A stretch of DNA of 64,000 nt from Gemmatimonadota bacterium (lineage in GTDB: Bacteria; Gemmatimonadota; Gemmatimonadetes; Gemmatimonadales; Gemmatimonadaceae), in contig PMAE01000068.1 of the NCBI GenBank assembly GCA_003152485.1, positions 40,612 through 104,611 on the forward strand, read 5' to 3'. Position 1 is the stretch's first letter; each line of letters starts with the position of its first letter. The notes under the pieces were generated by a model. That model searched no databases, was not told the DNA's origin, and was given only the letters and a program-made list of their open reading frames with translations. Shown piece by piece: positions 48,979-61,950 of the stretch. Made by a program: the position numbers and the translations under genes.

Positions 48979-49207
48979 CGAATAACCTCCTCCGCTCCCG
49001 AGCGGGAGCCGAATGCGGCGGGCCCGACTCGGCGGCCGCCCCTCGGGGACGGGCGCCGACCTTCAAGAATGCGCGCCCCGCCCGAGGGCGCAAGACCCGC
49101 CCTCCGCAATCCTGCCGATTCACTCGTTAGCGCCCCGCACGTCGCGGCAGCCTGAACGGTAGATTGGGCGGCGTGACCTGCCCTTGCCCTTCGACCCCGG
49201 AACTCTG

Positions 49208-50614
49208 ATGCCCCGCCGCCTGGCATACCTCTCCCTCGCACCGATCGCCGCCGTCGCCGTCATGGCGGCGATTCGGACCACGCCTGCACCGAATCCCGCG
49301 CCGCCGGCTTTGGCCATTGTGCACGCGACGCTGATCAATCCCAACGCGGCCCCGGTGCCCGATGCGGTCGTGGTGTTCCAGGCCGGCCGCGTGACGTGTG
49401 CCGGGGCGCGCACCTCGTGCGCGGTGCCGCAGGGGGCCGCCACGCGGGACGCGACGGGCGGATACATCACGCCAGGCCTGATCGACGCCCACGTCCACTA
49501 TTCGCAAACCGCATGGATCGACGGGCGGCCGGACGCTGGCGATGTGCGCGCCCGGTTTCCGTACGACTCCGTGGTCGCCTCGTTGCGCGACCATCCGGAG
49601 CGATTCGACCGCGCGTACCTCTGCTCGGGCGTGACGAGTGTCTTCGATGTGGGCGGATATCCCTGGTCGCTGCCCATGGCGCGGCGACACGAGGAGACGC
49701 TGACGGCGCCGCGGATGGTGGCCGCGGGTCCGCTGCTCGCGACGGTCGACTTCTGGCTCAACCTCCCGTTCGAACGGCAGTTCGTCTTCATGGGCAGCGA
49801 CTCCGCGGTGCGCACAGGAGTCAGCGCGCTGGCGCGGATGGGCGCGTCGGCAATCAAGGTGTGGTACATCCAGGTGCCCGACTCGCTCCAGGCGACGATG
49901 CGTCACCGGCTGATGGTCGCCGGCGAAGAGGCGCGCCGAGTGGGGCTGCCGTTGATCGTGCATGCGACGGAGCTGGCGCGGGCCAAGGAAGCGCTGGCCG
50001 CTGGGGCGCGGGTGCTCGTGCACAACGTGGACGATGTGCCGGTAGACAGCGAGTTCATCGCGCTCGCGCGGAAGAACGACGCGATCGTGATCCCCACGCT
50101 GGTCGTCGTCACCGGCTACGAAGATGTATTCCGGGGCCGCTCGCCCGGCCTGCGCTACCCGCTGGACTGCGTGGACAAGATCACGCGGTCCCATCTGGAG
50201 TCGCCGCTGCCGGACAACTTGCGTCCGCCGGCCGCCCGTCTCGACCGACTGAAGTCGGTGCCCGTCCGCAGCGCCCACAATTTGGCGCTCTTGGTCGCGG
50301 CTCACATTCCGATCGCCATGGGCACCGACGCGGGCAACCCGGGGACCGCCGCCGGCCCCAGTGTGTACGCCGAGATGGAGGCGATGCAGGCCGCCGGCAT
50401 GAGCGCGAAGGCGGTGTTCGCGTCCGCGACCATGGGCTCGGCCCGAGCGATGGGTCGCGACCGCGAACTGGGATCGCTCGAGCCGAACAAGCTTGCCGAT
50501 GCGGTCGTCTTCGACGCCGACCCCTCGGCCGACATCGCCAACGCTCGGAAGGTGAGGCTCGTCGTGCGCGGCGGCGCCGTGTACACGCGCGAGGAATTGT
50601 TGCCTCAGCCGTAG
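49208..50614 (+). CDS. Secreted amidohydrolase (metal-dependent)
   Basis: 468 aa from the ATG at 49208. A signal-like N-terminus (LAYLSLAPIAAVAVMAAI) precedes an amidohydrolase fold. HVHY in DAHVHYSQT is the first metal pair. AIKVWY may hold the carbamoylated lysine. HATE and VHNVDD carry further histidines and MGTDAGNPG the catalytic Asp. It resembles imidazolonepropionase/prolidase-like members. Substrate unknown. It is divergent from the PP2C gene. Confidence 0.88.
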   Translation: MPRRLAYLSLAPIAAVAVMAAIRTTPAPNPAPPALAIVHATLINPNAAPVPDAVVVFQAGRVTCAGARTSCAVPQGAATRDATGGYITPGLIDAHVHYSQTAWIDGRPDAGDVRARFPYDSVVASLRDHPERFDRAYLCSGVTSVFDVGGYPWSLPMARRHEETLTAPRMVAAGPLLATVDFWLNLPFERQFVFMGSDSAVRTGVSALARMGASAIKVWYIQVPDSLQATMRHRLMVAGEEARRVGLPLIVHATELARAKEALAAGARVLVHNVDDVPVDSEFIALARKNDAIVIPTLVVVTGYEDVFRGRSPGLRYPLDCVDKITRSHLESPLPDNLRPPAARLDRLKSVPVRSAHNLALLVAAHIPIAMGTDAGNPGTAAGPSVYAEMEAMQAAGMSAKAVFASATMGSARAMGRDRELGSLEPNKLADAVVFDADPSADIANARKVRLVVRGGAVYTREELLPQP

Positions 50615-51058
50615 TGCGCGGCAACCCACTGGCACACTCCTGGAGAGATCACGCATGGAGGGGCGCCATCTTCTTGGAGCGGTGCTTCCTCAACTCGCCG
50701 CGCCACGACCGCCTGACCTGCTCCGTGGTCGGCTACGGCGATAGTTTCTTCACCGACTCCTACGTCGATACGGCCACTGGCAACACGGTCTATCCGAACG
50801 TCGGTGCCACGCCATCGAGCGTCGTTGCGTTCATCGTGCCCTGACGAGCGCCCGCGATCTCGGCGTAGCCGGAGCCGACGCTCACTCGCCTCCCTGAGTT
50901 GAACCGACGCACCTGGGCCGCGCCTGACGCGTCTCTGGATTGACGGCTGGCGCTCCGGCGACGCTCGGCCGATACCACTCCCGCCGCACGAGGTGTGGCG
51001 TGTGTGAGAGGGCGCTCTAGGGGCGGGATCCAAAATCGGTCCTCCACCGACGGCTGCG
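50615..51058. other. 444-bp region with a possible gene remnant
   Basis: On the plus strand an ATG at 50655 with GGAGAG 7 nt upstream gives only 29 codons. In a second register, codons 50690-50844 read as DRLTCSVVGYGDSFFTDSY and continue in coding-like, low-charge residues to a stop at 50842-50844. The pattern suggests a frameshifted remnant of a secreted protein. Nothing convincing is seen from 50845 to 51058. Confidence 0.35.
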
Positions 51059-52483
51059 TCACAGCCCCACGACGGTCGGATGCCGAGTATGCCATGTCGT
51101 TGCCTGTTCGTACGCATGTGCGGCGCGGAGCACCGTCGATTCGTCGAAGGCGCGGCCGATGAACTGCAGACCCACTGGGAAGCCGTCGTGAGAAAAGCCG
51201 CATGGGACGGAGATCGCGGGCAGGCCGAGCAAATCGAACGAGAAGGTGTAGCGGATCGCGTCGTTGGCTGTAAACTCGCGGTTCTGGACGCGTGGGTACG
51301 GACCGAACGGACGGCCGGCGAGCGGATACGTGGGAGCGACGACCACGGCCGTGTCGTGCGTCGCGCGTGCGTAGGCACTCTGTAGCACGCGCCGCTGTTG
51401 CGTCGCGCGGATGTAATCGACGGCGGGGATCAGCGCGCCAGCCTTGATGTCGGCGCTGCTCGCGGCCGGTGGAACCGCCGCGTCGAAATCACTGGGGTGC
51501 TCGTGGAAGAGCTGCGCGGCGGCGACCGAGTACTCGCACGACGCGATCGTGTTGCCAACCGCGAGGAGCTGATCGAACGGCGGCAGGGTGACATCGACCA
51601 CCGACGCACCGAGCGAGCGTAAGGCATCGAGCGCGACATCGAACGCGGCGAGGACATCGGGCTGTCCGACGGTGACGTACCCGCGATCGACGCCGATGAC
51701 CATCCCCTTGATGCCGGTGCGCAATCCCGCGCCGTAATCGGGCACCGGCCGGCGCGCGGTAGTCGTGTCTCCGGCATCATGCCCCGCCAGCACTTGCAGC
51801 GCGATCGCGCAATCTTCAACGGTGCGCGTGAGTGGTCCCGGATGATCGAGCGTGTAGAGGCGAGGGAAGATGCCTTCGAGGCTGATGCGGCCATGCGTCG
51901 GCTTGAGACCGACGACGCCGCACAACGCCGCCGGGATCCGCACCGAGCCGCCGTTGTCCGTACCGACCGACAGCGGCACGATGCCGGCCGCAACTTGCGC
52001 GCCCGACCCGCTACTCGAGCCGCCCGGCGAATAGTCCCGGTTCCACGGATTCCGGATCTTGCCGAAATCCGGGTTATCGCCCGATTCGCCATCGGCGAAC
52101 TTGTTCATATTCGCCTTGCCGATGATCACGGCGCCGGCACGCTTCAACCGCCTGACGACGGCGGCATCGGCGGCCGGGACGTTGGCCACACGCGACTTGG
52201 CGCCGGCGGTGGTCCGAATACCAGCAGTGTCGATATGGTCCTTGATGCTGATCGGGATCCCGTGCAGTGGCCCGCGGTACTGCCCGCGGGCGATCTCGGC
52301 GTCCATCTGCCGCGCCTCCTCGAGGGCGGCGTCCGGGATGAGGGTAATGAATGAGTTCAACGCGGACTCGAGTCCGCGCGCCCGATCGAGTGCCTGGCGG
52401 ACGACGTCCACGGACGCAACCCGCCGCGCTCGCAGGTCGCCCGCCAACTCGGCGATAGTTGGGAACGCCGGGTCGGGGCTCAT
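51059..52483 (-). CDS. Amidase-signature hydrolase
   Basis: 474 aa. Triad visible: Lys in ISIKDHIDTAG, serines in PGGSSSGSGAQVAAG and GTDNGGSVRIPA. C-terminal GLPAISVPCGFSHDGFPVGLQ is typical. No signal peptide of its own, unlike the amidase at 37548-39356. Its start overlaps the preceding small gene by 4 bp, so the two products are made together and may interact. It could hydrolyse small amides or act on peptides; the substrate is not evident. Confidence 0.93.
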   Translation of the reverse strand: MSPDPAFPTIAELAGDLRARRVASVDVVRQALDRARGLESALNSFITLIPDAALEEARQMDAEIARGQYRGPLHGIPISIKDHIDTAGIRTTAGAKSRVANVPAADAAVVRRLKRAGAVIIGKANMNKFADGESGDNPDFGKIRNPWNRDYSPGGSSSGSGAQVAAGIVPLSVGTDNGGSVRIPAALCGVVGLKPTHGRISLEGIFPRLYTLDHPGPLTRTVEDCAIALQVLAGHDAGDTTTARRPVPDYGAGLRTGIKGMVIGVDRGYVTVGQPDVLAAFDVALDALRSLGASVVDVTLPPFDQLLAVGNTIASCEYSVAAAQLFHEHPSDFDAAVPPAASSADIKAGALIPAVDYIRATQQRRVLQSAYARATHDTAVVVAPTYPLAGRPFGPYPRVQNREFTANDAIRYTFSFDLLGLPAISVPCGFSHDGFPVGLQFIGRAFDESTVLRAAHAYEQATTWHTRHPTVVGL

Positions 52484-52740
52484 ACGTCGATGTCGGGGTC
52501 GAAGTCCGACTGCGGCTGGATCGTCGGATCGACCGCGGCCGTGAACCGGTTTCCGTCAAGCGACGCCTGGACCTTTGCGCCCTCGCCAGGTCGCAGTGTG
52601 TAGCCGGTAAGCTGCTGGAGCAGTACTCCGATCTGCGCTTCCGATGGACCTTCGCTCGAAGCCGGAGGCGACGAGCATGCGCCAAGCAGCAGGCCGGCGC
52701 CCGACGTCATGAGGGAAGCCAACGCATCACGACGCTGCAT
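52480..52740 (-). CDS. Small Tat-lipoprotein, putative amidase partner
   Basis: 86 aa. The ATG at 52740 is 6 nt after GGAG (a longer frame to 52770 has no better RBS). The N-terminus QRRDALASLMTSGAGLLLGAC has a twin-arginine-like pair and a lipobox (LGAC, mature end CSSPP). The rest (EAQIGVLLQQLTGYTLRPGEG to QPQSDFDPDIDV) has the size and the Pro/Phe/Asp-Pro end of small GatC/AtzG-like amidase partners. It overlaps the amidase start. It may tether or co-export the amidase. Confidence 0.75.
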   Translation of the reverse strand: MQRRDALASLMTSGAGLLLGACSSPPASSEGPSEAQIGVLLQQLTGYTLRPGEGAKVQASLDGNRFTAAVDPTIQPQSDFDPDIDV

Positions 52741-52921
52741 GATCATCTCCGTGAGAGGGTGCCCGACCACGTATAGCGCGGCCGGGAGGGCCCGGAATCA
52801 CCTGGTGCGACAGGCACTGTCCGATCGGCCTTGCAACCGCGAGCACCCTCACGAGCGTGACCGCGAGCGCGAACTCGAACGCGAACGCCCCCAGCCGTCG
52901 AGGCGGCCGCCGTACCCCGCG

Positions 52922-53374
52922 TCAACCCGCCTCCACCGGCAACTCCAGGCATTCGACGGTGCGCCCATCTGGATCGCAGGCATAGATGGCGCGGATCCCA
53001 TCCCAGGCCGACCCCGGCTCGTTGATCGTCACCGGTCGAGACGTGGGGACGGCACCAAGCTCGGTCAGGCGATCGTAGACCGCGTCCACATCGGCGACCT
53101 GGAACCCGAGATGGGTGTGGCCCGGCTGGTTTCTCAGCTGGCCCAGTGGGACGCCCAGTGGGGTCACATACTGTATGAGCTCGAGGATCTCGCCGTCCGG
53201 CAGCTGAAGGTCCGCCGTGACGATGTGCGCATCGGATACGCCCGTGAGCGTCTCGACTTCGACGCCGCTGCTCTCCGATCTCTCACGCACGGTACACCCA
53301 ACGATCGCGCGATAGAACTCGATCGAGACGTCAAGATCCGAGACCGTGAGGCCGATATGATGGAGCATGGTCAT
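52922..53374 (-). CDS. VOC (glyoxalase-fold) metalloprotein
   Basis: 150 aa. Two beta-alpha-beta-beta-beta repeats. Metal ligands are plausible: His in LHHIGLTV, Glu in LELIQYV, His in HTHLGFQV and Glu in TVECLELP. VOC proteins can be isomerases, dioxygenases or resistance proteins. The stop of the upstream decarboxylase overlaps its start by 4 bp, so it belongs to the peptide-locus operon (52922-57053). Function there unknown; epimerase- or dioxygenase-like chemistry is possible. Confidence 0.88.
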   Translation of the reverse strand: MTMLHHIGLTVSDLDVSIEFYRAIVGCTVRERSESSGVEVETLTGVSDAHIVTADLQLPDGEILELIQYVTPLGVPLGQLRNQPGHTHLGFQVADVDAVYDRLTELGAVPTSRPVTINEPGSAWDGIRAIYACDPDGRTVECLELPVEAG

Positions 53375-54768
53375 AGGGTCGTGAACGGCGCGCGCGGCTC
53401 ATCTCGGCTGAGCACCTCCTCGAGCGTTTCATGGCGTTTGACGAGGCGTGCGCGGTTTCCGCTCACCAACACCGTCCCCGGTCGTGCCAACACGTTGAAA
53501 TTCGAGGCCGCGGCATCCTGATACGCTCCCGTGTCGAGAAACGCGACGATGTCTCCGGCGACGACCCGCGGAGCGGGCACGTCCCGCGCGATCAGGTCGA
53601 AGTTGCACGAGATCCCCACGATGTGCACGGGCGCGACGTCCGGCGATTCCGCTCTCGACGCGAATACCGGCCGAAAATAGGCATGTTCGAGCAGGAGATC
53701 CGGCATGAACATCTCCGTCGTGTCCACCTCCACCCAGGTGCTCGCGACTGGACGGGTCTGCGTCTTGACGTGACAGACGCGACTGAGATGCAGCCCCGCA
53801 TCCGCAAAAAGACTCCGGCCCGGTTCGAGCTGCAAGACGATTCCGTCGGGGTCGATACCCCCGTGCACGAGCGCCGACCGAAGGGCGACGGCAACGCCCT
53901 CGGCGTATCGATCAATCGGCTGAGCCGGCCGCCGATCCGGATCGGTCGGGTCGCGGGGTGCTGGGAACCCGCCCCCGATATCGAGCTCTCTTGGTCTCCA
54001 TGGAGCCCATGCGTTGCAAAGCTCGGCCACCGTCTCCCCAAAGCCCGCGGCCATCTTCGCCCACACGCCCGGATCCGCACTGTGCCGGCCGAGGTGCGTC
54101 ATGAGGCCCGTGAGCTCGATCCGATCGTGGGACAGTGCACGGCGCCCGAGGGCACGCGCTGTCGTGGGCTCGATCCCTGGCTTGTAGAGCTGCGCGGCGT
54201 CCCGAATCGCCATGTCCGGGAAGAAGTCCGAGCGCTCCGTGAGAGTGGCGTGGTCAGGCCGAATTCGAAGACGGATTCGTGCGGTCTTGCCGAGCTCCGT
54301 GACGATCGCCAGTAGTGATTCCAGTTCGTAAGCGCTGTCGAGCGTGATGTTCGCGCCCGCAACCACGGAAGCCCGGAGAAGCGGCGCGGATTTCGCCGAG
54401 CCGTTGACGGAGATGCGGGCTGCCGGCACGCCGGCCCGCAGTGCCGCATTCAGCTCATTGCCGCCGAATACATCACATCCCACCCCCTCGTCATTCAACA
54501 GCTCGCGAATCGCGAGCACATAATTCGCCTTGAGCGAGGGGAGTAGCTCCACGCGCCCAACCGGCCAGTGCCGCTCGAATGCGGCTCGCAGCATCTGGCA
54601 GTTCGCGCGCAACTGCGCTTCCGAGACGACATAGAGCGGCGTACCGAACCGCTCCGCGAGCGCAACGGTGTCGCAGTGCTCGACCCACAGATGACCACCG
54701 GTGACGTGAAGGTGGCCGCCGAGAATCGGTGGCCCTCCCCTGCCCGCACTACTATGAGTCGATAGCAT
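53371..54768 (-). CDS. LysA/ornithine-decarboxylase-like PLP enzyme (fold type III)
   Basis: 465 aa from the ATG at 54768. An alanine-racemase-like barrel has the PLP lysine K80 in LLPSLKANYVL, then GCDVFGGNELNAAL, DIGGGFP and LEPGRSLFADAG. The C-terminal beta-domain has GISCNFDLIARD where diaminopimelate decarboxylases have CESxD, and the FLDTGAYQDAAASNFN end. The Glu-Ser pair that binds the distal group of diaminopimelate is changed to Asn-Phe, so another amino acid or a peptide C-terminus is the likely substrate. It is in the peptide-like operon between an MFS exporter and a VOC gene. Confidence 0.88.
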   Translation of the reverse strand: MLSTHSSAGRGGPPILGGHLHVTGGHLWVEHCDTVALAERFGTPLYVVSEAQLRANCQMLRAAFERHWPVGRVELLPSLKANYVLAIRELLNDEGVGCDVFGGNELNAALRAGVPAARISVNGSAKSAPLLRASVVAGANITLDSAYELESLLAIVTELGKTARIRLRIRPDHATLTERSDFFPDMAIRDAAQLYKPGIEPTTARALGRRALSHDRIELTGLMTHLGRHSADPGVWAKMAAGFGETVAELCNAWAPWRPRELDIGGGFPAPRDPTDPDRRPAQPIDRYAEGVAVALRSALVHGGIDPDGIVLQLEPGRSLFADAGLHLSRVCHVKTQTRPVASTWVEVDTTEMFMPDLLLEHAYFRPVFASRAESPDVAPVHIVGISCNFDLIARDVPAPRVVAGDIVAFLDTGAYQDAAASNFNVLARPGTVLVSGNRARLVKRHETLEEVLSRDEPRAPFTTL

Positions 54769-54818
54769 GATCGTTCGGGCCTGGGAACCGGGCGTCGGCC
54801 GGTAGAAACGGCACGAGA

Positions 54819-56003
54819 CTACCCACCGCTGGGCTCTGCCGTTCTCAATCGGCAAAGGTACACGATCGAGTAGCAAAGTGTGGCGAGGGTCGCCGCGCCG
54901 CCGGCAAGCAGCAGGACGGCCCAATAGCCCTGTCCCACGGTCAATGCGAGTCCGCCCGCGGCCGGCCCCGCCGCCAATGCAACACCCTGTGCGGCGGGGA
55001 CCAATGCCGCGGAGCGGCCAGTGGGGTCGACGATGGCAAGAGTTCCCAGCTGAAAGATGTCGATGAAGTTCCAACAGACCTGTACGACACAGAGGGCCAA
55101 GATGTACATCACGGGATTGGGGCTACCGGTGTGAATCAGGAGAATCACTGAGAGTCCACCGAGTGCGGCGAGGAGTGGACGCGACTGACCAACGCTCCGA
55201 CTCAGACGATACGCCGCGATGCAGCCGACACTGCTCAACAGCACGCTGGCCGTCAGCAGATGATGCACGAGTCCCGCCGAAAGGCCGAAGCTGATGCCCA
55301 TCCTCTCCGCGTACGCCCAATAACTGCCAATCGCCACGTAGACGAATGCGACCGCAGCCAGGCACAGCGCGGCCATGATTGCAGCGCCCGCGACGCGTGG
55401 GTGCTCCGGCGGCGTTGATGGTGACGAAGCGGACGTACGACGCGGGTCCCGTCCAGGGAGACTGGGAACGATGACGAGCGTTGCGGCCATCACCACGGCG
55501 ATCGTGACGAACAAACCGCCGGGCCCCCACTTCGTGTCGATCGCTGGGAAAACCGCGAGAACTATCGCGTTCGCGATCACCTGGGCGAAGATCACGATCG
55601 AGAATCCGCGGGCGGTATCCGGTACTCGGGAGAGCAGCGTGAGAGAGGATGAGTATGCGACACCGGATGCCAGGCCGGCGCAGAATCTGAGGGCGCACAA
55701 CACACCGAGTGTATGGAACCAAACGCACAGGATGTTCATGACGCAGCAGAGCACGATGGCCGCGCCCACAAACCGTTTCCAGTTGATTCGATTCGCCCAG
55801 ACGGACGTCGTGACGGCTCCCACGAAGAGCCCGGCGAGATCGATCGACGTGATGTAGCCTGCGTACGCTGCGCTGTAGCCCCAGTGATCGGCGAGCGCGC
55901 CGACGATGAGCGGCATACCGAGTATGGGCACCACGCCGCCAATGGACAGGGCGATCAGGGCCCAAAACTGCCATCCGCCACGTCGTATGTCGGTCCCGGC
56001 CAT
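54819..56003 (-). CDS. MFS transporter
   Basis: 394 aa, about 12 TM helices. The N-terminal half has FWALIALSIGGVVPILGMPL and the RVPDTARGFSIVIFAQV loop; the C-terminal half has VGQSRPLLAALGGLSVILLIH and ALVPAAQGVALAAGPAAGGL. A long cytoplasmic loop with GRDPRRTSASS lies in the middle. Likely exports the product of the local cluster. No clear RBS for the ATG at 56003; a tiny upstream frame may couple it. Confidence 0.9.
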   Translation of the reverse strand: MAGTDIRRGGWQFWALIALSIGGVVPILGMPLIVGALADHWGYSAAYAGYITSIDLAGLFVGAVTTSVWANRINWKRFVGAAIVLCCVMNILCVWFHTLGVLCALRFCAGLASGVAYSSSLTLLSRVPDTARGFSIVIFAQVIANAIVLAVFPAIDTKWGPGGLFVTIAVVMAATLVIVPSLPGRDPRRTSASSPSTPPEHPRVAGAAIMAALCLAAVAFVYVAIGSYWAYAERMGISFGLSAGLVHHLLTASVLLSSVGCIAAYRLSRSVGQSRPLLAALGGLSVILLIHTGSPNPVMYILALCVVQVCWNFIDIFQLGTLAIVDPTGRSAALVPAAQGVALAAGPAAGGLALTVGQGYWAVLLLAGGAATLATLCYSIVYLCRLRTAEPSGG

Positions 56004-56024
56004 TAGCGTGGCGACTGGATGTCC

Positions 56025-56105
56025 CTACGGGCTCGGACGGCCACGCAGGGATTCAGGCTGGGCGCGCGTGGTGTGGCCGGCAGGGGCCGCTGAATTGGTA
56101 TCCAT
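56025..56105 (-). CDS. 26-aa reading frame with good RBS, candidate short peptide
   Basis: ATG at 56105, TAG at 56025-56027. GGAG lies 5 nt upstream (56111-56114), a better RBS than that of the downstream MFS gene. The peptide starts MDTNSAAPAGHTTR and ends RGRPSP, with no Cys. It lies between the HDO oxidase and the MFS exporter, 28 bp and 21 bp from them. It may be a small second peptide, a translational coupler for the MFS gene, or chance. Confidence 0.35.
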   Translation of the reverse strand: MDTNSAAPAGHTTRAQPESLRGRPSP

Positions 56106-56133
56106 GGGATCTCCAGTATGGGGTCGCGCCGCG

Positions 56134-56766
56134 CTATCCCCTGCTCCGGGTCCAGTTGTCGACGGTCTCGGTCAGTGAGCGGCCCAACAGGTGCAGGGTC
56201 GAAAATCCGCTAACCGCGATCGTCGCCGCGTGCTCCGCGGTGAGGGGCATCGCGTCCAGCGCGCGATTCAGCGCATCGCGATGGTGAGGATCGAGGTCCG
56301 CGTGCTTGAGAATCGTCCTGAACGCGTTCCGGGGGAGCCCCGTCTCGCTGATAACGGCTTCCACATGCTCCGCCACTGGCGGCGTACCCTCGAGTACCGC
56401 GATATAGCCGAGCAATGCCACCGGGTGGTAGTGCCGGATCCAGTAATATTGAGACCCGACGAGGGCGGCCACGGTCGGCGACGGCATCCGCGCCAGCACC
56501 TGCTCGCGGGCGACGCCCAGCGTCTCGAGGTCGTCGAGCAGCCAGTCGTCGTGGTGGCGCTCCTCGCGGATGTGGTGAGCGAGGTAGGTGGCGAGATCGG
56601 CGGCCACGTCATCATGCGCCGCCAACTCCTGCGCCCGTGCTCTCGCCGTCTCCATTAATGGGACACTGGCCCGAATTATGGAGTGCGTACGGATGAGGTA
56701 GTCGGCAAACAGCGCCGCTAACTCGGGGTGCGACCAGAACGCCCCGCTCGCGGCCGCGTACTCCAT
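56134..56766 (-). CDS. Heme-oxygenase-like diiron oxidase/oxygenase (HDO; 'iron-containing redox enzyme')
   Basis: 210 aa, all-helical. The HDO ligand set is present: ExxH at E68-H71 or E69-H72 (IREERHHDDW), E126 (AVLEGTP) and the HxxxDxxH H155-D159-H162 (KHADLDPHH). HDO enzymes use two irons and oxygen for C-C cleavage, N-oxygenation or decarboxylation, often in natural-product clusters. In-frame residues before the first ATG (SAELRQKLELAG) look coding but carry no standard start. It follows the leader-like peptide gene by 107 bp. Confidence 0.85.
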   Translation of the reverse strand: MEYAAASGAFWSHPELAALFADYLIRTHSIIRASVPLMETARARAQELAAHDDVAADLATYLAHHIREERHHDDWLLDDLETLGVAREQVLARMPSPTVAALVGSQYYWIRHYHPVALLGYIAVLEGTPPVAEHVEAVISETGLPRNAFRTILKHADLDPHHRDALNRALDAMPLTAEHAATIAVSGFSTLHLLGRSLTETVDNWTRSRG

Positions 56767-56873
56767 CCCCGCGAGCTCCAGCTTTTGGCGGAGCTCGGCG
56801 CTGTGCGTACCCCGCGCCTTCGCGCGGCCCCTGGGCGGGCGGTGCGTACCCGGCGCCGCCCCGCCCCGTGCAC

Positions 56874-57053
56874 TCAGAAGAAATCCGCCCCTTGGTGGAG
56901 CGTCGCGTTCGAGCCCTTACCGCCGAGTTTCTGCTTGGCGCTGACCAGCGCATCGACCTCCTGCGGGGTCAGCTTGTTGATCGCGTCCTTGTGCTCCTTC
57001 GTCAACCGCTTGGGATCCACCAGCCCTGCCGCAGCGAGCTTGTCAACCGACAT
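56874..57053 (-). CDS. 59-aa leader-like peptide, putative RiPP precursor
   Basis: ATG at 57053 with AAGGAG about 7 nt upstream. N-terminal residues MSVDKLAAAGLVDPKRLTKE and the following INKLTPQEVDALVSAKQKL resemble the short helix-rich 'aroma-sacti'-type leader domain as I remember it. A Gly-rich stretch GGKG precedes a short tail SNATLHQGADFF that could be a core with His and two terminal Phe. It is the first gene of a minus-strand set with the HDO, MFS, LysA-like and VOC genes. No radical SAM gene is nearby. I infer a precursor peptide; the family match needs a profile search. Confidence 0.6.
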   Translation of the reverse strand: MSVDKLAAAGLVDPKRLTKEHKDAINKLTPQEVDALVSAKQKLGGKGSNATLHQGADFF

Positions 57054-57233
57054 CGTGGTCTCCTTGGTGCGATCGGTTTCTGGCAAGCATGGCCGCGGCG
57101 CGAATCGACCCACTACCGCGCCCGTCCCCAAGCTTGACCGCCGCCGATGGTCAGCCGCTAAGGTAGGGGTCCACCTAGAGTGCTGGCAACCCTCTGGCGC
57201 AGTCGGGTCCGCCGCCCCACCTTAGCGGGCTTG

Positions 57234-59585
57234 GTGTCCGACTCTCCCAGCAGTCCGATTGATCGCGTCCGCGCAGCGCTCGCTGATCATTACGTGATCG
57301 GGCGCGAGCTTGGGCACGGCGCGATGGCGACGGTCTACTTGGCTCGGGATGTGAAGCACGACCGGGACGTCGCGGTGAAGGTCATGCGCCCCGAGTTGGT
57401 GGCCGTGCTGGGCGCGACGCGATTCCTGCAGGAAATCCGATTCGCGGCCCATCTCCAGCACCCGCACATCGTTCCGCTGTTCGATTCCGGCGCGGTCGGC
57501 GACGTCCTCTATTACGTCATGCCCTACGTCGAGGGCGAGTCGCTCCGGCGTCGGCTCGAACGGGAGACGCAGCTCCCACTCGATGACGCGATCGCCATCA
57601 CGACGGCGGTCGCGGGGGCACTCGACTATGCCCATCGCCAGAATATCGTGCATCGCGACATCAAGCCCGAGAACATCCTGCTGCACGACGGGCATCCACT
57701 GGTCGCGGATTTCGGGGTCGCGCTCGCCGTCAGCACGGCGGGCGGCACTCGGCTGACCGGGACCGGCGTGTCGCTCGGGACGCCGGCGTACATGAGCCCC
57801 GAGCAGGCCGCGGCAGAGCCGACGCTCGACGGCCGAAGCGATCAGTACAGCCTGGCCTGTGTCTGTTACGAGATGCTCTCGGGTGAGCCGGTCTATTCCG
57901 GCTCGACCGCCCAGTCGGTGATCGCCAAACATCTCTCCGGAGCGATCCCTCATCTAAGTACGGTTCGCAATGTTCCAGGCTCTGTCGACCGCGCGGTGAC
58001 TCGGGCGCTGGCGAAGGCACCCGCCGATCGGTTTCCGACGGCGCGCGCCTTCGCCGATGCGTTGACCGAACCGGCGCACCCACGCGGCCGAGCGTCGGGC
58101 GCGCGCCGGCGGCCCGCCGTGGTGGCCGCGGTCGCCGTGCTCCTCGTCGCGATCGCGCTGGGCGGCGCGGAGGTCTGGGTCCGCACCCACCGTGGCGCGC
58201 CAGCCAGCGGCGGCATCCGATCGATTGCCGTCCTTCCACTGGAGAACGTGGGCGGCGATCCACGTGACGAATATTTCTCCGATGGAATGACCGACGAGCT
58301 CATGGCCGCGCTCAGCCGCGTACCGGGGCTCCGCGTTGCGTCGCGGACCTCGTCCTACGTCTTCAAGGGCAAGCGCAATGTCGATGTGCGGCAGATCGCG
58401 AACCGCCTCAACGTGGCGGCGGTCCTCGAGGGTTCGGTCCAGCGAGATGGGAGCCGCATGCGAATCAACACGCAGCTGACCAATGTCTCCGACGGGCTCT
58501 CGCTGTGGTCGGAGCGCTACGAGCGGACCAACAAGGATGTGTTTCAGGTTGAGGACGAGATCTCGCAAGCGGCCGTTCGGGCCTTGACGCCGACTCTGAC
58601 GGGCCGAGCCGTGGCTCATTTGGCTCGACCGGGTACGGACAATATCGAGGCGTACGATCTGTATCTCCGGGCCCGATACCGATTCAACAATTTCACGGAG
58701 ACCGACCTGCGCGAGAGCATCAAGCTCTACCAACAGGCGCTCGACAAGGATCCTCGATACGCGCTCGCGTGGGCGGGGATCGCCGAGTCGTGGTCCTACC
58801 TCGCGGATGACTATGTGGCGCCGCGCGAGGCCGAGCCCAACGTCAAGGCGGCCGCGCTCCATGCACTGTCGCTCGATTCCTCCGTCGCCGCGGCCCACGC
58901 GCTGCTCGGCACCGAGTTGTACCAGTTCGAATGGAACTTCGACGCCGGTGGCCGAGAGCTACGCCAGGCGCTTGCACTCGACCCACATCTCTTCATCTCG
59001 CAGCTCAGCTATCACGGGTTCCTGATCGCGACCGGCCACCTCGACTCGGCGCTCGCAGTCCTCGAAGGGGCTCAGGCGCTCGACCCGCTGTCGGTGCTCG
59101 ATGCCCTCTTTCTTGGCCGGTTCTACGGGATCGTCGGTCGCTACGATCGCGCGGCGGCAGAATATCGCCACGCGCTCGACCTCACACCGGGCAATCCGCC
59201 CGCCCTGTTGGGACTGGGGCAGGCGCTGCTCGACAAGGGTGATACCGCGGCCGCCGACTCAGTGCTGAGAGTCGCGCGCTCGCTCTTTCCGCCCGAGGCC
59301 GTATATGTCTTTGCGGAGTCGGATGCCGGGCTTGGCCGACGCGCCGAGGCGGCGCGGCTGGTGGCCGATATGGTGGAGGCATCGAAATCACGATACATCG
59401 GGGCCGAAGGCATCGCCGCGGTCTACGTCCGGCTCGGGGATGCGAACAGCGCATTCCGTTGGCTGGATAGCGCGGTCGTGGCGCGGTCGGCCTACGTGCT
59501 GTCGCTCAAGGCGGATCGCAAGTGGGATCCCATTCGTGCCGACCCGCGGTTCGCGGCGTTGGTGCAGCGGATCGGACTACCATGA
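57234..59585 (+). CDS. Serine/threonine kinase with TM, FlgO-like and TPR domains
   Basis: 783 aa from a GTG at 57234 (a GTG at 57180 is also in frame). Kinase domain about 15-270: GRELGHGAMATVYLARD, VAVKVM, HRDIKPEN from 140, DFG from 159 and SLGTPAYMSPEQ. TM helix at about 290-310. Then a FlgO-like domain (SIAVLPLENVGGDPRDEYF, GMTDELMAALSRVPGLRVAS) and TPR repeats to the end (KWDPIRADPRFAALVQRI). Its stop overlaps the next start (ATGA). The architecture mirrors the SARP regulator at 20729 with a kinase in place of the DNA-binding part. Confidence 0.93.
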   Translation: MSDSPSSPIDRVRAALADHYVIGRELGHGAMATVYLARDVKHDRDVAVKVMRPELVAVLGATRFLQEIRFAAHLQHPHIVPLFDSGAVGDVLYYVMPYVEGESLRRRLERETQLPLDDAIAITTAVAGALDYAHRQNIVHRDIKPENILLHDGHPLVADFGVALAVSTAGGTRLTGTGVSLGTPAYMSPEQAAAEPTLDGRSDQYSLACVCYEMLSGEPVYSGSTAQSVIAKHLSGAIPHLSTVRNVPGSVDRAVTRALAKAPADRFPTARAFADALTEPAHPRGRASGARRRPAVVAAVAVLLVAIALGGAEVWVRTHRGAPASGGIRSIAVLPLENVGGDPRDEYFSDGMTDELMAALSRVPGLRVASRTSSYVFKGKRNVDVRQIANRLNVAAVLEGSVQRDGSRMRINTQLTNVSDGLSLWSERYERTNKDVFQVEDEISQAAVRALTPTLTGRAVAHLARPGTDNIEAYDLYLRARYRFNNFTETDLRESIKLYQQALDKDPRYALAWAGIAESWSYLADDYVAPREAEPNVKAAALHALSLDSSVAAAHALLGTELYQFEWNFDAGGRELRQALALDPHLFISQLSYHGFLIATGHLDSALAVLEGAQALDPLSVLDALFLGRFYGIVGRYDRAAAEYRHALDLTPGNPPALLGLGQALLDKGDTAAADSVLRVARSLFPPEAVYVFAESDAGLGRRAEAARLVADMVEASKSRYIGAEGIAAVYVRLGDANSAFRWLDSAVVARSAYVLSLKADRKWDPIRADPRFAALVQRIGLP

Positions 59586-60712
59586 CCGCGCGTGTTCGCC
59601 GCACGGCGGAGTTCAAGCTGGCCGATGGCCGGAGACTGCCGACGCTGTTGTTCGTGACGAACCGTACCGCGCTCGCGCGCCGCATTGGCCGCGACACGAC
59701 CGCGACGGTGTTGAACGGGATTCGTGCCGCTGGACACATCGTGTACGACACGCTGCGGGCCAGCGCCGCCGGCTCGCCGGCTCCGGCGATCGCCGCGGTC
59801 AGACGCCAGCTCGCGACGCACCCACACGTGGCAGGCGTCGTGCTGCTCGGGGGCTATGACGTCGTGCCGGCGGAACGATTGGATTGCCTGCCGCCGCGAC
59901 TCAGGAAGCGAGTCGGTGCGAGTGACGATCCCGATGATTTCATGGTGTGGAGTGATGACTCGTACGGCGACGCCGATGGTGACCACATCCCGGACCTGCC
60001 CGTGAGCCGCATTCCGGACGGACGATCGGCGGAGCTGGTCGTCGCTGCGCTCCAGGCGAGCGCGATTCCATCGTCCCGGTCGCGGCGCGGTGTACGGAAC
60101 ACCGCTCGGCCGTTTGCGGACGCGATCTTTGAGACGCTGCCCGGTCGAGCCTCGATGCTGCGGTCCAGTCCCGTGCGCCACGATCAGCGGCCGCGCTATT
60201 CGCTGGATGCCGCGTACGTGTACCTCGTGCTGCATGGATTGCCTAACAACGGCTCGGCGTTCTGGGGTGAAGACGGCCATCGGCATCCAAAGGCCGTCGT
60301 GTCTGCCAACCTGCCGTCGCGCCGCGGTGTGGTTGCGTTTACCGGGTGCTGTTATGGCGCACTGACCGTGGACGAGCCGGCGATCTTGGCGCCCGCGGGC
60401 AAGGCGCCGATCTCGCGGTCGCCGGAGCAATCGGTCGCGCTCTCGTTCCTGCTGCGTGGAGCGCGCGCGTTCGTGGGGTGCACAGCGCTTCACTATTCGC
60501 CGGTGCAGCCCCGGTACGACTACTTCGGTGCCCCGTTGCATGAAGCGTTCTGGCGCGCGGTGATGAATGGAAGCCCACCGGCGCGTGCGCTATTGCAGGC
60601 CAAGCACCATTTTATTCGCGGACTGCCACATGGACAGGAACCGAACAGCGCTGCCGAGGCGATCGAATTCAAGACATTCCGCGAATTCACGTGCTTAGGT
60701 CTCGGGTGGTGA
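59582..60712 (+). CDS. Clan CD (gingipain/caspase-like) cysteine peptidase-like protein
   Basis: 376 aa. The N-terminal half looks like an alpha/beta pre-domain (LPTLLFVTNRTALARRI, VLLGGYDVVPAERLD). PDLPVSRIPDGRSAEL is reminiscent of C25 peptidases. The catalytic pair is likely H218 (YLVLHGLPNNG) and C256/C257 (VAFTGCCYG), the HG and GC motifs of the clan. No signal peptide, so cytoplasmic if not exported otherwise. Its ATG overlaps the kinase stop, so the two proteins are coupled. The active-site assignment is from motif reading only. Confidence 0.78.
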   Translation: MTARVRRTAEFKLADGRRLPTLLFVTNRTALARRIGRDTTATVLNGIRAAGHIVYDTLRASAAGSPAPAIAAVRRQLATHPHVAGVVLLGGYDVVPAERLDCLPPRLRKRVGASDDPDDFMVWSDDSYGDADGDHIPDLPVSRIPDGRSAELVVAALQASAIPSSRSRRGVRNTARPFADAIFETLPGRASMLRSSPVRHDQRPRYSLDAAYVYLVLHGLPNNGSAFWGEDGHRHPKAVVSANLPSRRGVVAFTGCCYGALTVDEPAILAPAGKAPISRSPEQSVALSFLLRGARAFVGCTALHYSPVQPRYDYFGAPLHEAFWRAVMNGSPPARALLQAKHHFIRGLPHGQEPNSAAEAIEFKTFREFTCLGLGW

Positions 60713-60767
60713 GGATGCTCGCCGGGGACATGTGGGTGCACCGCCGCTCGATGAGCGCGAGGGGACG

Positions 60768-61163
60768 ATGACCGCAAAATCGGACCGCGAGTTGGATCGG
60801 ATCGTCGCCCGTGAAAAGCCGGGTTACCGACGCGTCACGCGACCACGTCGCTCGGCAGGGTCCCGGAGGCGCGCCCCTGACGCCGGGACACCCGACGTGT
60901 CGGCGTTGCACGCGGCGGTCGAGTCGCTGCGACTTTGGGACATCAAGCCCCGCAGCACAGGACGCAGTGCTCGGGGCGCCGCTAGCGACGCCGCCCAGTC
61001 GCCCGTACCACGGACGAGCCGGCCCGATCCACAGCGTGGTGCGCCCGCGACGCACCATATCGTCACGGTCGGGCATGCGCGGCAGCACGAATCGGATCCA
61101 CTGCAGACGCGCGTAATCGTCGTGTCTCGTTCGCAAGGTCGGATCATTGGCGAACAGGGCTGA
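60768..61163 (+). CDS. Small basic protein of unknown function
   Basis: 131 aa. The ATG at 60768 has GAGGGG 3-4 nt upstream. Very Arg/Ser/Pro-rich and probably disordered in the middle (about 20-95), with a more ordered-looking end (HHIVTVGHARQH, RVIVVSRSQGRI). It starts 55 bp after the peptidase-like gene and could be its substrate or a regulator. No family recognised. The Arg-rich composition also fits a chance GC-rich frame. Confidence 0.5.
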   Translation: MTAKSDRELDRIVAREKPGYRRVTRPRRSAGSRRRAPDAGTPDVSALHAAVESLRLWDIKPRSTGRSARGAASDAAQSPVPRTSRPDPQRGAPATHHIVTVGHARQHESDPLQTRVIVVSRSQGRIIGEQG

Positions 61164-61167
61164 CCGG

Positions 61168-61950
61168 GTGCGCATCGCGGGCTCTCACCGATCGCTGCTC
61201 TCGCTGGCGGTCATCTCTCTGGTGGCTGGGACGGCGTTACCTGCGCGCGGTCAGGTCTCGGCCGAGTGGCCGATCCATTCGATGGACCGGCCCAAGCCAG
61301 CGGTCGTTGACCCAGGTCCGTCGCGCGACCCCGTGCCGCCGCCAGCTGACGCCGTCGTGCTGTTCAATGGCCACGATCTGTCCGACTGGCGTAACGCCGA
61401 CACGAGTGGCGCCCCTGCCCGGTGGAAGGTCGAGGCTGGCTACATCGAGGTCGTCAACGGAACCGGGAACATCGCCACGACGCGCACGTTTGGGGACGCG
61501 CAGCTTCACGTGGAATGGGAAGCTCCCACGCCCCCGACCGGCGAAGGGCAGGAGCGCGGCAACAGCGGCGTCTTCCTCATGGGCAAGTACGAAGTGCAGG
61601 TGATGGATTCGTACGACAATCCCACCTACGCCGATGGGCAGGCGGCGGCGATGTTCGGCCAATATCCGCCCCTGGTCAACGCCAGCCGCCCGCCTGGTCA
61701 GTGGCAGACCTACGACATCATCTGGCACGGCCCACGCTGGGGGCCGAAGGGTGATTTACGCAGCCCCGCGCGCATCACGGTCTTCCATAATGGCATCCTG
61801 GTGCAGGACAACGTGACGCTCACCGGGCCCACGGCATACATGCGTCGCCCGCCGTACACTCACGACCCCGACCAACTCCCGCTGGTGCTGCAAGACCACC
61901 ACAGCCCGGTCCGTTTTCGCGACATTTGGATTCGCCCGCTGAAGGATTGA
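61168..61950 (+). CDS. DUF1080 protein (3-keto-glycoside hydrolase-like)
   Basis: 260 aa from the GTG at 61168. Signal peptide LLSLAVISLVAGTALPARGQ. A concanavalin-like DUF1080 domain follows with VLFNGHDLSDW, RTFGDAQLHVEWEAP, GNSGVFLMGKYEVQVMDSY and PLVLQDHHSPVRFRDIWI. Some members cleave 3-keto-glycosides made by a GMC dehydrogenase, and such a dehydrogenase is encoded 97 bp downstream. It would act in the periplasm. Confidence 0.9.
   Translation: MRIAGSHRSLLSLAVISLVAGTALPARGQVSAEWPIHSMDRPKPAVVDPGPSRDPVPPPADAVVLFNGHDLSDWRNADTSGAPARWKVEAGYIEVVNGTGNIATTRTFGDAQLHVEWEAPTPPTGEGQERGNSGVFLMGKYEVQVMDSYDNPTYADGQAAAMFGQYPPLVNASRPPGQWQTYDIIWHGPRWGPKGDLRSPARITVFHNGILVQDNVTLTGPTAYMRRPPYTHDPDQLPLVLQDHHSPVRFRDIWIRPLKD

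Follow-up and report, generated by a model that had tools for sequence, protein, structure and literature searches.

Does a 59-residue peptide encoded just ahead of a heme-oxygenase-like diiron oxidase (HDO) mark a pathway to a modified peptide, and which of the surrounding genes would belong to it? The question is raised by a 64,000-nucleotide stretch of DNA (the window), for which a first-pass annotation had proposed a peptide natural-product locus made up, on one strand, of a leader-like peptide, an HDO, a 26-residue frame, an MFS exporter, a LysA-like decarboxylase and a VOC enzyme. HDO enzymes form an expanding superfamily, and to our knowledge few peptide substrates are known for them. 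Our sequence comparisons suggest, with high probability, that the peptide and the HDO are a precursor and its maturase within one RiPP cassette. The five named genes are all present where the annotation placed them, including the MFS gene, the fold-type III PLP decarboxylase with its changed substrate motif and the VOC gene overlapping it by 4 bp on the minus strand, but this single-strand gene set omitted a kinase-TPR gene and a C25-like peptidase gene on the plus strand (Table 1).

Table 1 Features of the candidate peptide-HDO cassette and its neighbourhood (window coordinates)
Feature	Position	Strand	Remarks
Putative precursor peptide, 59 aa	56874..57053	-	NF045560 match over cut-off
Layout of the peptide			aroma_sacti-type leader at about residues 3-44, then a short core ending ...LHQGADFF
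HDO (heme-oxygenase-like diiron oxidase)	56134..56766	-	PF14518; true start probably upstream, near 56808
MFS transporter	54819..56003	-	Adjacent module, probably outside the cassette; 68% identical copy in congener G002
Fold-type III PLP decarboxylase, DAP decarboxylase-like, altered substrate motif	53371..54768	-	Adjacent module; 78% identical in G002
VOC-fold protein	52922..53374	-	PF00903; 4-base overlap with the decarboxylase; adjacent module; 66% identical in G002
Ser/Thr protein kinase, C-terminal TPR region	57180..59585	+	PF00069 and TPR; divergent from the peptide
C25-like (gingipain/caspase-type) peptidase	59582..60712	+	PF01364; probable start overlaps the kinase stop (ATGA)

The peptide gene, which has AAGGAGA shortly 5' of its ATG, occurs once in the genome, and a plasmid search with the peptide returned no match. 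In a profile search, its product scored 34.6 bits against NCBIfam NF045560 (aroma_sacti_dom; cut-off 30), a recognised RiPP-type leader, and by this match the leader-like peptide of the first-pass annotation falls into a known family. The leader alignment reveals the pattern of a RiPP locus, namely a short precursor gene with a conserved leader and a divergent core that varies between clades. The 26-residue frame (about 56105-56025) fared less well: it lies outside the DNA conserved with a congener, the alignment stopping at 55990, and was dropped as a candidate second peptide. A regulatory hairpin between the peptide and HDO genes was likewise rejected, its folding being no better than that of shuffled sequences (z -0.62), and terminator-like sites occur at chance level. 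In a separate locus (L031, 4986-6779), an MFS transporter frame runs into a C-terminal leader-type peptide (NF045560, residues 538-584), either a fusion of transporter and precursor or two genes that share one reading frame.

The HDO gene product scores 48.5 bits against PF14518 (cut-off 28.9), and its predicted model (pLDDT 96.7) has a fold matching those of UndA, CADD and HrmI. The full ligand set described earlier is in place, with the E-x2-H, E, H-x3-D-x2-H pattern of the superfamily represented by E69/H72, E126 and H155/D159/H162; among 39 homologues, D159 is conserved in at least 90%, and no variation is seen at E68/E69, H72, E126, H155 or H162. The start of the gene is uncertain because the N-terminal motif of the homologues (HSxxLRxKIxL), which precedes the residue corresponding to the annotated ATG (56766), has its counterpart in the window in frame upstream of that ATG, where THSAELRQKLELAG is read without any ATG, GTG or TTG. 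Translation likely begins at an ACG near 56808 or at another unusual start, or else the sequence contains a base error; the lack of a normal start codon for this conserved N terminus counts against the proposed cassette.

To assess conservation of the peptide-HDO pair, we used an alignment of three HDOs to search a genome set in which each species is represented once. This yielded 80 loci, to which a plasmid and genome G130 added one each, giving 82. Starting from the peptides of the window and of G130, we grew a leader profile on the very loci that were then counted. By this profile, 74 of these 82 loci with the same HDO subfamily contain a relative of the leader, and 10 unrelated loci contain none; as an independent check, NF045560 by itself matches the peptides of 18 of 20 representative relatives. 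In the reverse direction, 30 of 32 NF045560 leader matches fall inside HDO loci in a set of 38 whole genomes, all of which hold such a locus. The leader is genetically linked in both directions to an enzyme of a kind that modifies peptides, from which we infer that the HDO of the window acts on the 59-residue peptide. The precursor idea, which hung on linkage to HDO genes and on a C terminus that is variable rather than conserved, gains from this strong linkage and from the differing cores, the last residue being constrained. Loci with both leader and HDO occur in Actinomycetota, Acidobacteriota, Pseudomonadota, Myxococcota and Planctomycetota, and in one Nitrosocosmicus archaeon. Within the phylum of the window the HDO is rare, with three carriers among 395 genomes: the window genome, G295 (locus L018, 63% identical) and G130. 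HDO homologues carried by plasmids of Pseudoalteromonas and Methylibium (27-35% identity) were set aside as another kind, having AMP-binding, SDR or crotonase neighbours and no leader matches.

Most related HDOs have further candidate maturases for company. Established RiPP maturase types are found in 68 of 83 HDO loci (radical SAM, 38; YcaO-TfuA, 15; LanM-type, 10; B12-radical SAM, 5), and a subtilase is located near the HDO in 35. These partner types cluster on the HDO tree beyond chance, although its deep branches are weakly supported. The remaining 15 loci, among them the window and L018, have no established type, in line with the earlier remark that no radical SAM or lanthionine enzyme is present; near the HDO of the window we found no established RiPP maturase other than the HDO itself. 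The leader domain, for which the peptide exceeds the curated NF045560 cut-off, is shared with the aroma-sacti cluster domain and StsA-related sactipeptides of NCBIfam (NF045560 and NF045559), but the window peptide, unlike those, contains no Cys and no radical SAM homologue was found beside it or near the HDO, which argues against sactipeptide chemistry in the window. Neither was the YcaO and TfuA pair of thioamidated RiPPs found within 6 kb. By gene content, the window appears to hold the minimal form of the cassette, with the HDO as sole evident maturase.

The plus-strand genes point to a further recurrent component. No further than 5 kb from the leader or HDO, 73 of the 83 loci encode a protein that contains a Ser/Thr kinase or class III nucleotide cyclase domain (60 of them within 1.5 kb), whereas 348 kb of flanking sequence further out contain one cyclase/kinase frame. 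In the representatives examined, these domains were confirmed and the partner proteins carry TPR or AAA regions. They resemble the TOMM kinase/cyclase (TIGR03903) and peptide modification cyclase (TIGR04510) families of NCBIfam, signalling proteins with related domains that are named for peptide-modification systems, every match being under the curated cut-off; the papers searched contain no description of either family with an HDO. The weight rests on the cross-genome count because the window genome contains 61 stretches matching the kinase-TPR gene (candidate starts at 57180 or about 57234), with dozens of paralogues, the closest of which equals the relative's gene in similarity. Taken alone, the adjacency of the kinase in the window could be chance, and it was dropped as proof by itself. 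The same layout recurs in L018, the nearest HDO relative, in which a kinase-TPR gene diverges from the leader and HDO genes and is followed by the same C25-like gene (40% identical, at the same place, with HG and GCC motifs kept and no Pfam match of its own). The window C25-like gene scores 27.9 bits against PF01364 (cut-off 23) over a best stretch of just 69 residues, and comparison of its product with solved structures gave no convincing match. It is present in three of 390 genomes of the phylum, in two of them beside a leader-HDO cassette. A role exclusive to the cassette was discarded, given that the copy in G206 (L112, 6547-9108) lies behind an MBL-fold domain in another gene setting, with no leader match or HDO.

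Where on the peptide might the HDO act? Among 32 distinct peptides the last residue is F in 16, W in six, V in four, L in three, I in two and H in one, so that F, W, V, L or I stands last in 31, against a background of 18.6% hydrophobic ends in neighbouring frames. A formal p-value would be unsafe here, the peptides being related to one another, and HDO-free loci supplied too few leaders for a control. The bias towards hydrophobic ends suggests, tentatively, that the enzyme acts at the C-terminal residue of the precursor. Two HDOs offer relevant precedents: MboA coordinates its peptide substrate to Fe1 through the C-terminal carboxylate (PMC13185094), and UndA catalyses the decarboxylation of an acid (PMC13108848). 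In the mechanism that we envision, two divergent transcription units (56134-60712) would encode the peptide with the HDO and the kinase-TPR protein followed by the C25-like peptidase. The leader would bring the peptide to the HDO, which would oxidise the short core, most likely at its hydrophobic C-terminal residue, the free carboxylate of which can sit on the diiron site. The reaction could be beta-hydroxylation, alpha,beta-desaturation or decarboxylation to an enamide, options favoured over beta,gamma-desaturation, for which F and W lack the necessary C-gamma hydrogen. The C25-like peptidase would then remove the leader, and the kinase, replaced in most relatives by a nucleotide cyclase, may sense or regulate the pathway.

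The first-pass annotation envisioned a larger pathway, in which HDO, MFS exporter, LysA-like decarboxylase and VOC enzyme all act on the same peptide, as their shared strand and order, short gaps and the 4-base LysA/VOC overlap would suggest. Cross-genome evidence makes this very improbable. The co-occurrence of the peptide with the HDO does not extend to the LysA-like gene: neither a LysA nor a VOC homologue was found near the HDO in any of the 82 other loci. In the same-genus genome G002, the VOC-LysA-MFS trio lies on another contig (66-78% identity), with no peptide and no intact HDO nearby. Furthermore, about 12 kb of the window (49011-61243) are missing at the syntenic G002 site, with flanks matching on both sides, and genes of this stretch have relatives at scattered places in congeners G001 and G002; it thus appears to be a mosaic accessory region, in which neighbouring genes need not work together. 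There is also a chemical objection, in that PLP decarboxylases require a free alpha-amino group and the C-terminal residue of a peptide has none. Nor does the enzyme pass as a diaminopimelate decarboxylase (LysA): it matches the lysA model TIGR01048 at E=8e-64 but with 216 bits, under the cut-off of 298, and reads C-NFD at the CESSD (CESxD) motif of those enzymes. On co-occurrence and synteny we rejected the trio as part of the peptide pathway, and it is most likely a separate neighbouring module. What stands of the proposed modified-peptide locus is the leader peptide with its HDO, on the strength of the two-way linkage, the NF045560 match and the maturases of relatives; the membership of the MFS, LysA-like and VOC genes does not. 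Elsewhere in G002 (contig C27) lies an HDO remnant of about 40 residues (L102, 5284-5372; 89 bases of DNA at 83% identity), which has no peptide close by and points to decay of the cassette in this congener.

Two further alternatives concern the peptide and the HDO themselves. The hydrophobic end could reflect recognition by another component instead of the reaction site, and the HDO may act on an inner core side chain, for example in the His region or on the Cys of related cores, leaving the last residue as a recognition or protease feature only. This possibility, which we hold with reserve, finds a parallel in VarO, which dehydrogenates an Arg residue in the thiovarsolin precursor or in fragments of it (PMC6511847), and a His several residues ahead of the end is kept in many cores; on the other hand, the hydrophobic end is more constant than any inner core residue, and MboA holds its substrate by the C-terminal carboxylate (PMC13185094). 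More radically, the peptide could serve inside the cell as a regulatory partner, either to the HDO or to the kinase/cyclase, the system being a redox- or oxygen-sensing switch. The kinase/cyclase is about as constant as the peptide, and a classical maturase is missing in some loci, the window included, as such a switch would have it. However, most relatives have added RiPP maturases and many a subtilase, and in several loci there are between two and four peptide genes whose cores differ, as expected of precursors, making a switch quite improbable and leaving a precursor and its maturase as the preferred reading.

The closest described pathways share parts of this arrangement. The thiovarsolin pathway (varA, varY, varT, varO) contains in VarO an HDO-type RiPP tailoring enzyme (PMC6511847), so that the earlier statement that no pathway with exactly this set is described holds for the exact gene set but not for HDO tailoring of RiPPs. 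Like the window, this system combines a ribosomal precursor with an HDO-type enzyme, deletion of varO abolishing dehydrogenation of the product, and its cluster includes an MFS gene; unlike the window, it requires YcaO-TfuA, and its repeat-bearing precursor, with a different core, is cut to tripeptides (PMC6511847). A second comparison is with the YcaO-TfuA thioamide clusters of Sinorhizobium, for which a heme oxygenase-like gene was pointed out in a survey of 2021 (PMC8120280) and which are probably L015 and its relatives: they have the same HDO subfamily (about 44% identical) and leader type, but differ in having thioamidation enzymes and a cyclase instead of a kinase, the C25-like peptidase being a feature of the window. 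The mangotoxin acetylenase MboA, likewise an HDO, whose target is the last residue of a peptide, matches the window HDO weakly in sequence (E=0.014), and its substrate, unlike the window peptide, is a tripeptide made by ATP-grasp enzymes and not ribosomally (PMC13185094). No description of the leader-HDO-cyclase/kinase triad was found in the searchable papers, a scope that leaves out most subscription journals.

Overall, the peptide-HDO pair, usually near a kinase/cyclase gene and spread across many bacterial phyla, probably represents a little-studied route to a modified peptide. A bolder generalisation, somewhat unlikely to hold in full, is a widespread and unnamed three-part RiPP family consisting of an aroma_sacti-type leader, a QYYW-motif HDO and a cyclase/kinase, in which the HDO would oxidise the precursor at its last residue (decarboxylation to an enamide being one example), the signalling protein would read out the modified peptide, and the window would be a minimal, HDO-only system. 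The occurrence of the peptide beside the enzyme in many genomes provides ready enzyme-substrate pairs, and in minimal loci such as the window two proteins suffice for a test. Should the reaction take place at the C terminus, peptides with altered ends would become accessible in a new way. The constancy of the cyclase/kinase partner suggests that peptide modification is tied to signalling in a manner as yet unexplored.

Two of the related loci show peculiarities of their own. The record of L018 (CALQGY020000053.1) is titled Candidatus Kuenenia stuttgartiensis, but its sequence is the same as that of G295, which is placed in the family of the window, and the title or binning looks wrong. In a Myxococcus locus (L030), two HDO genes flank one leader peptide, adjoined by a berberine-bridge-type FAD enzyme.
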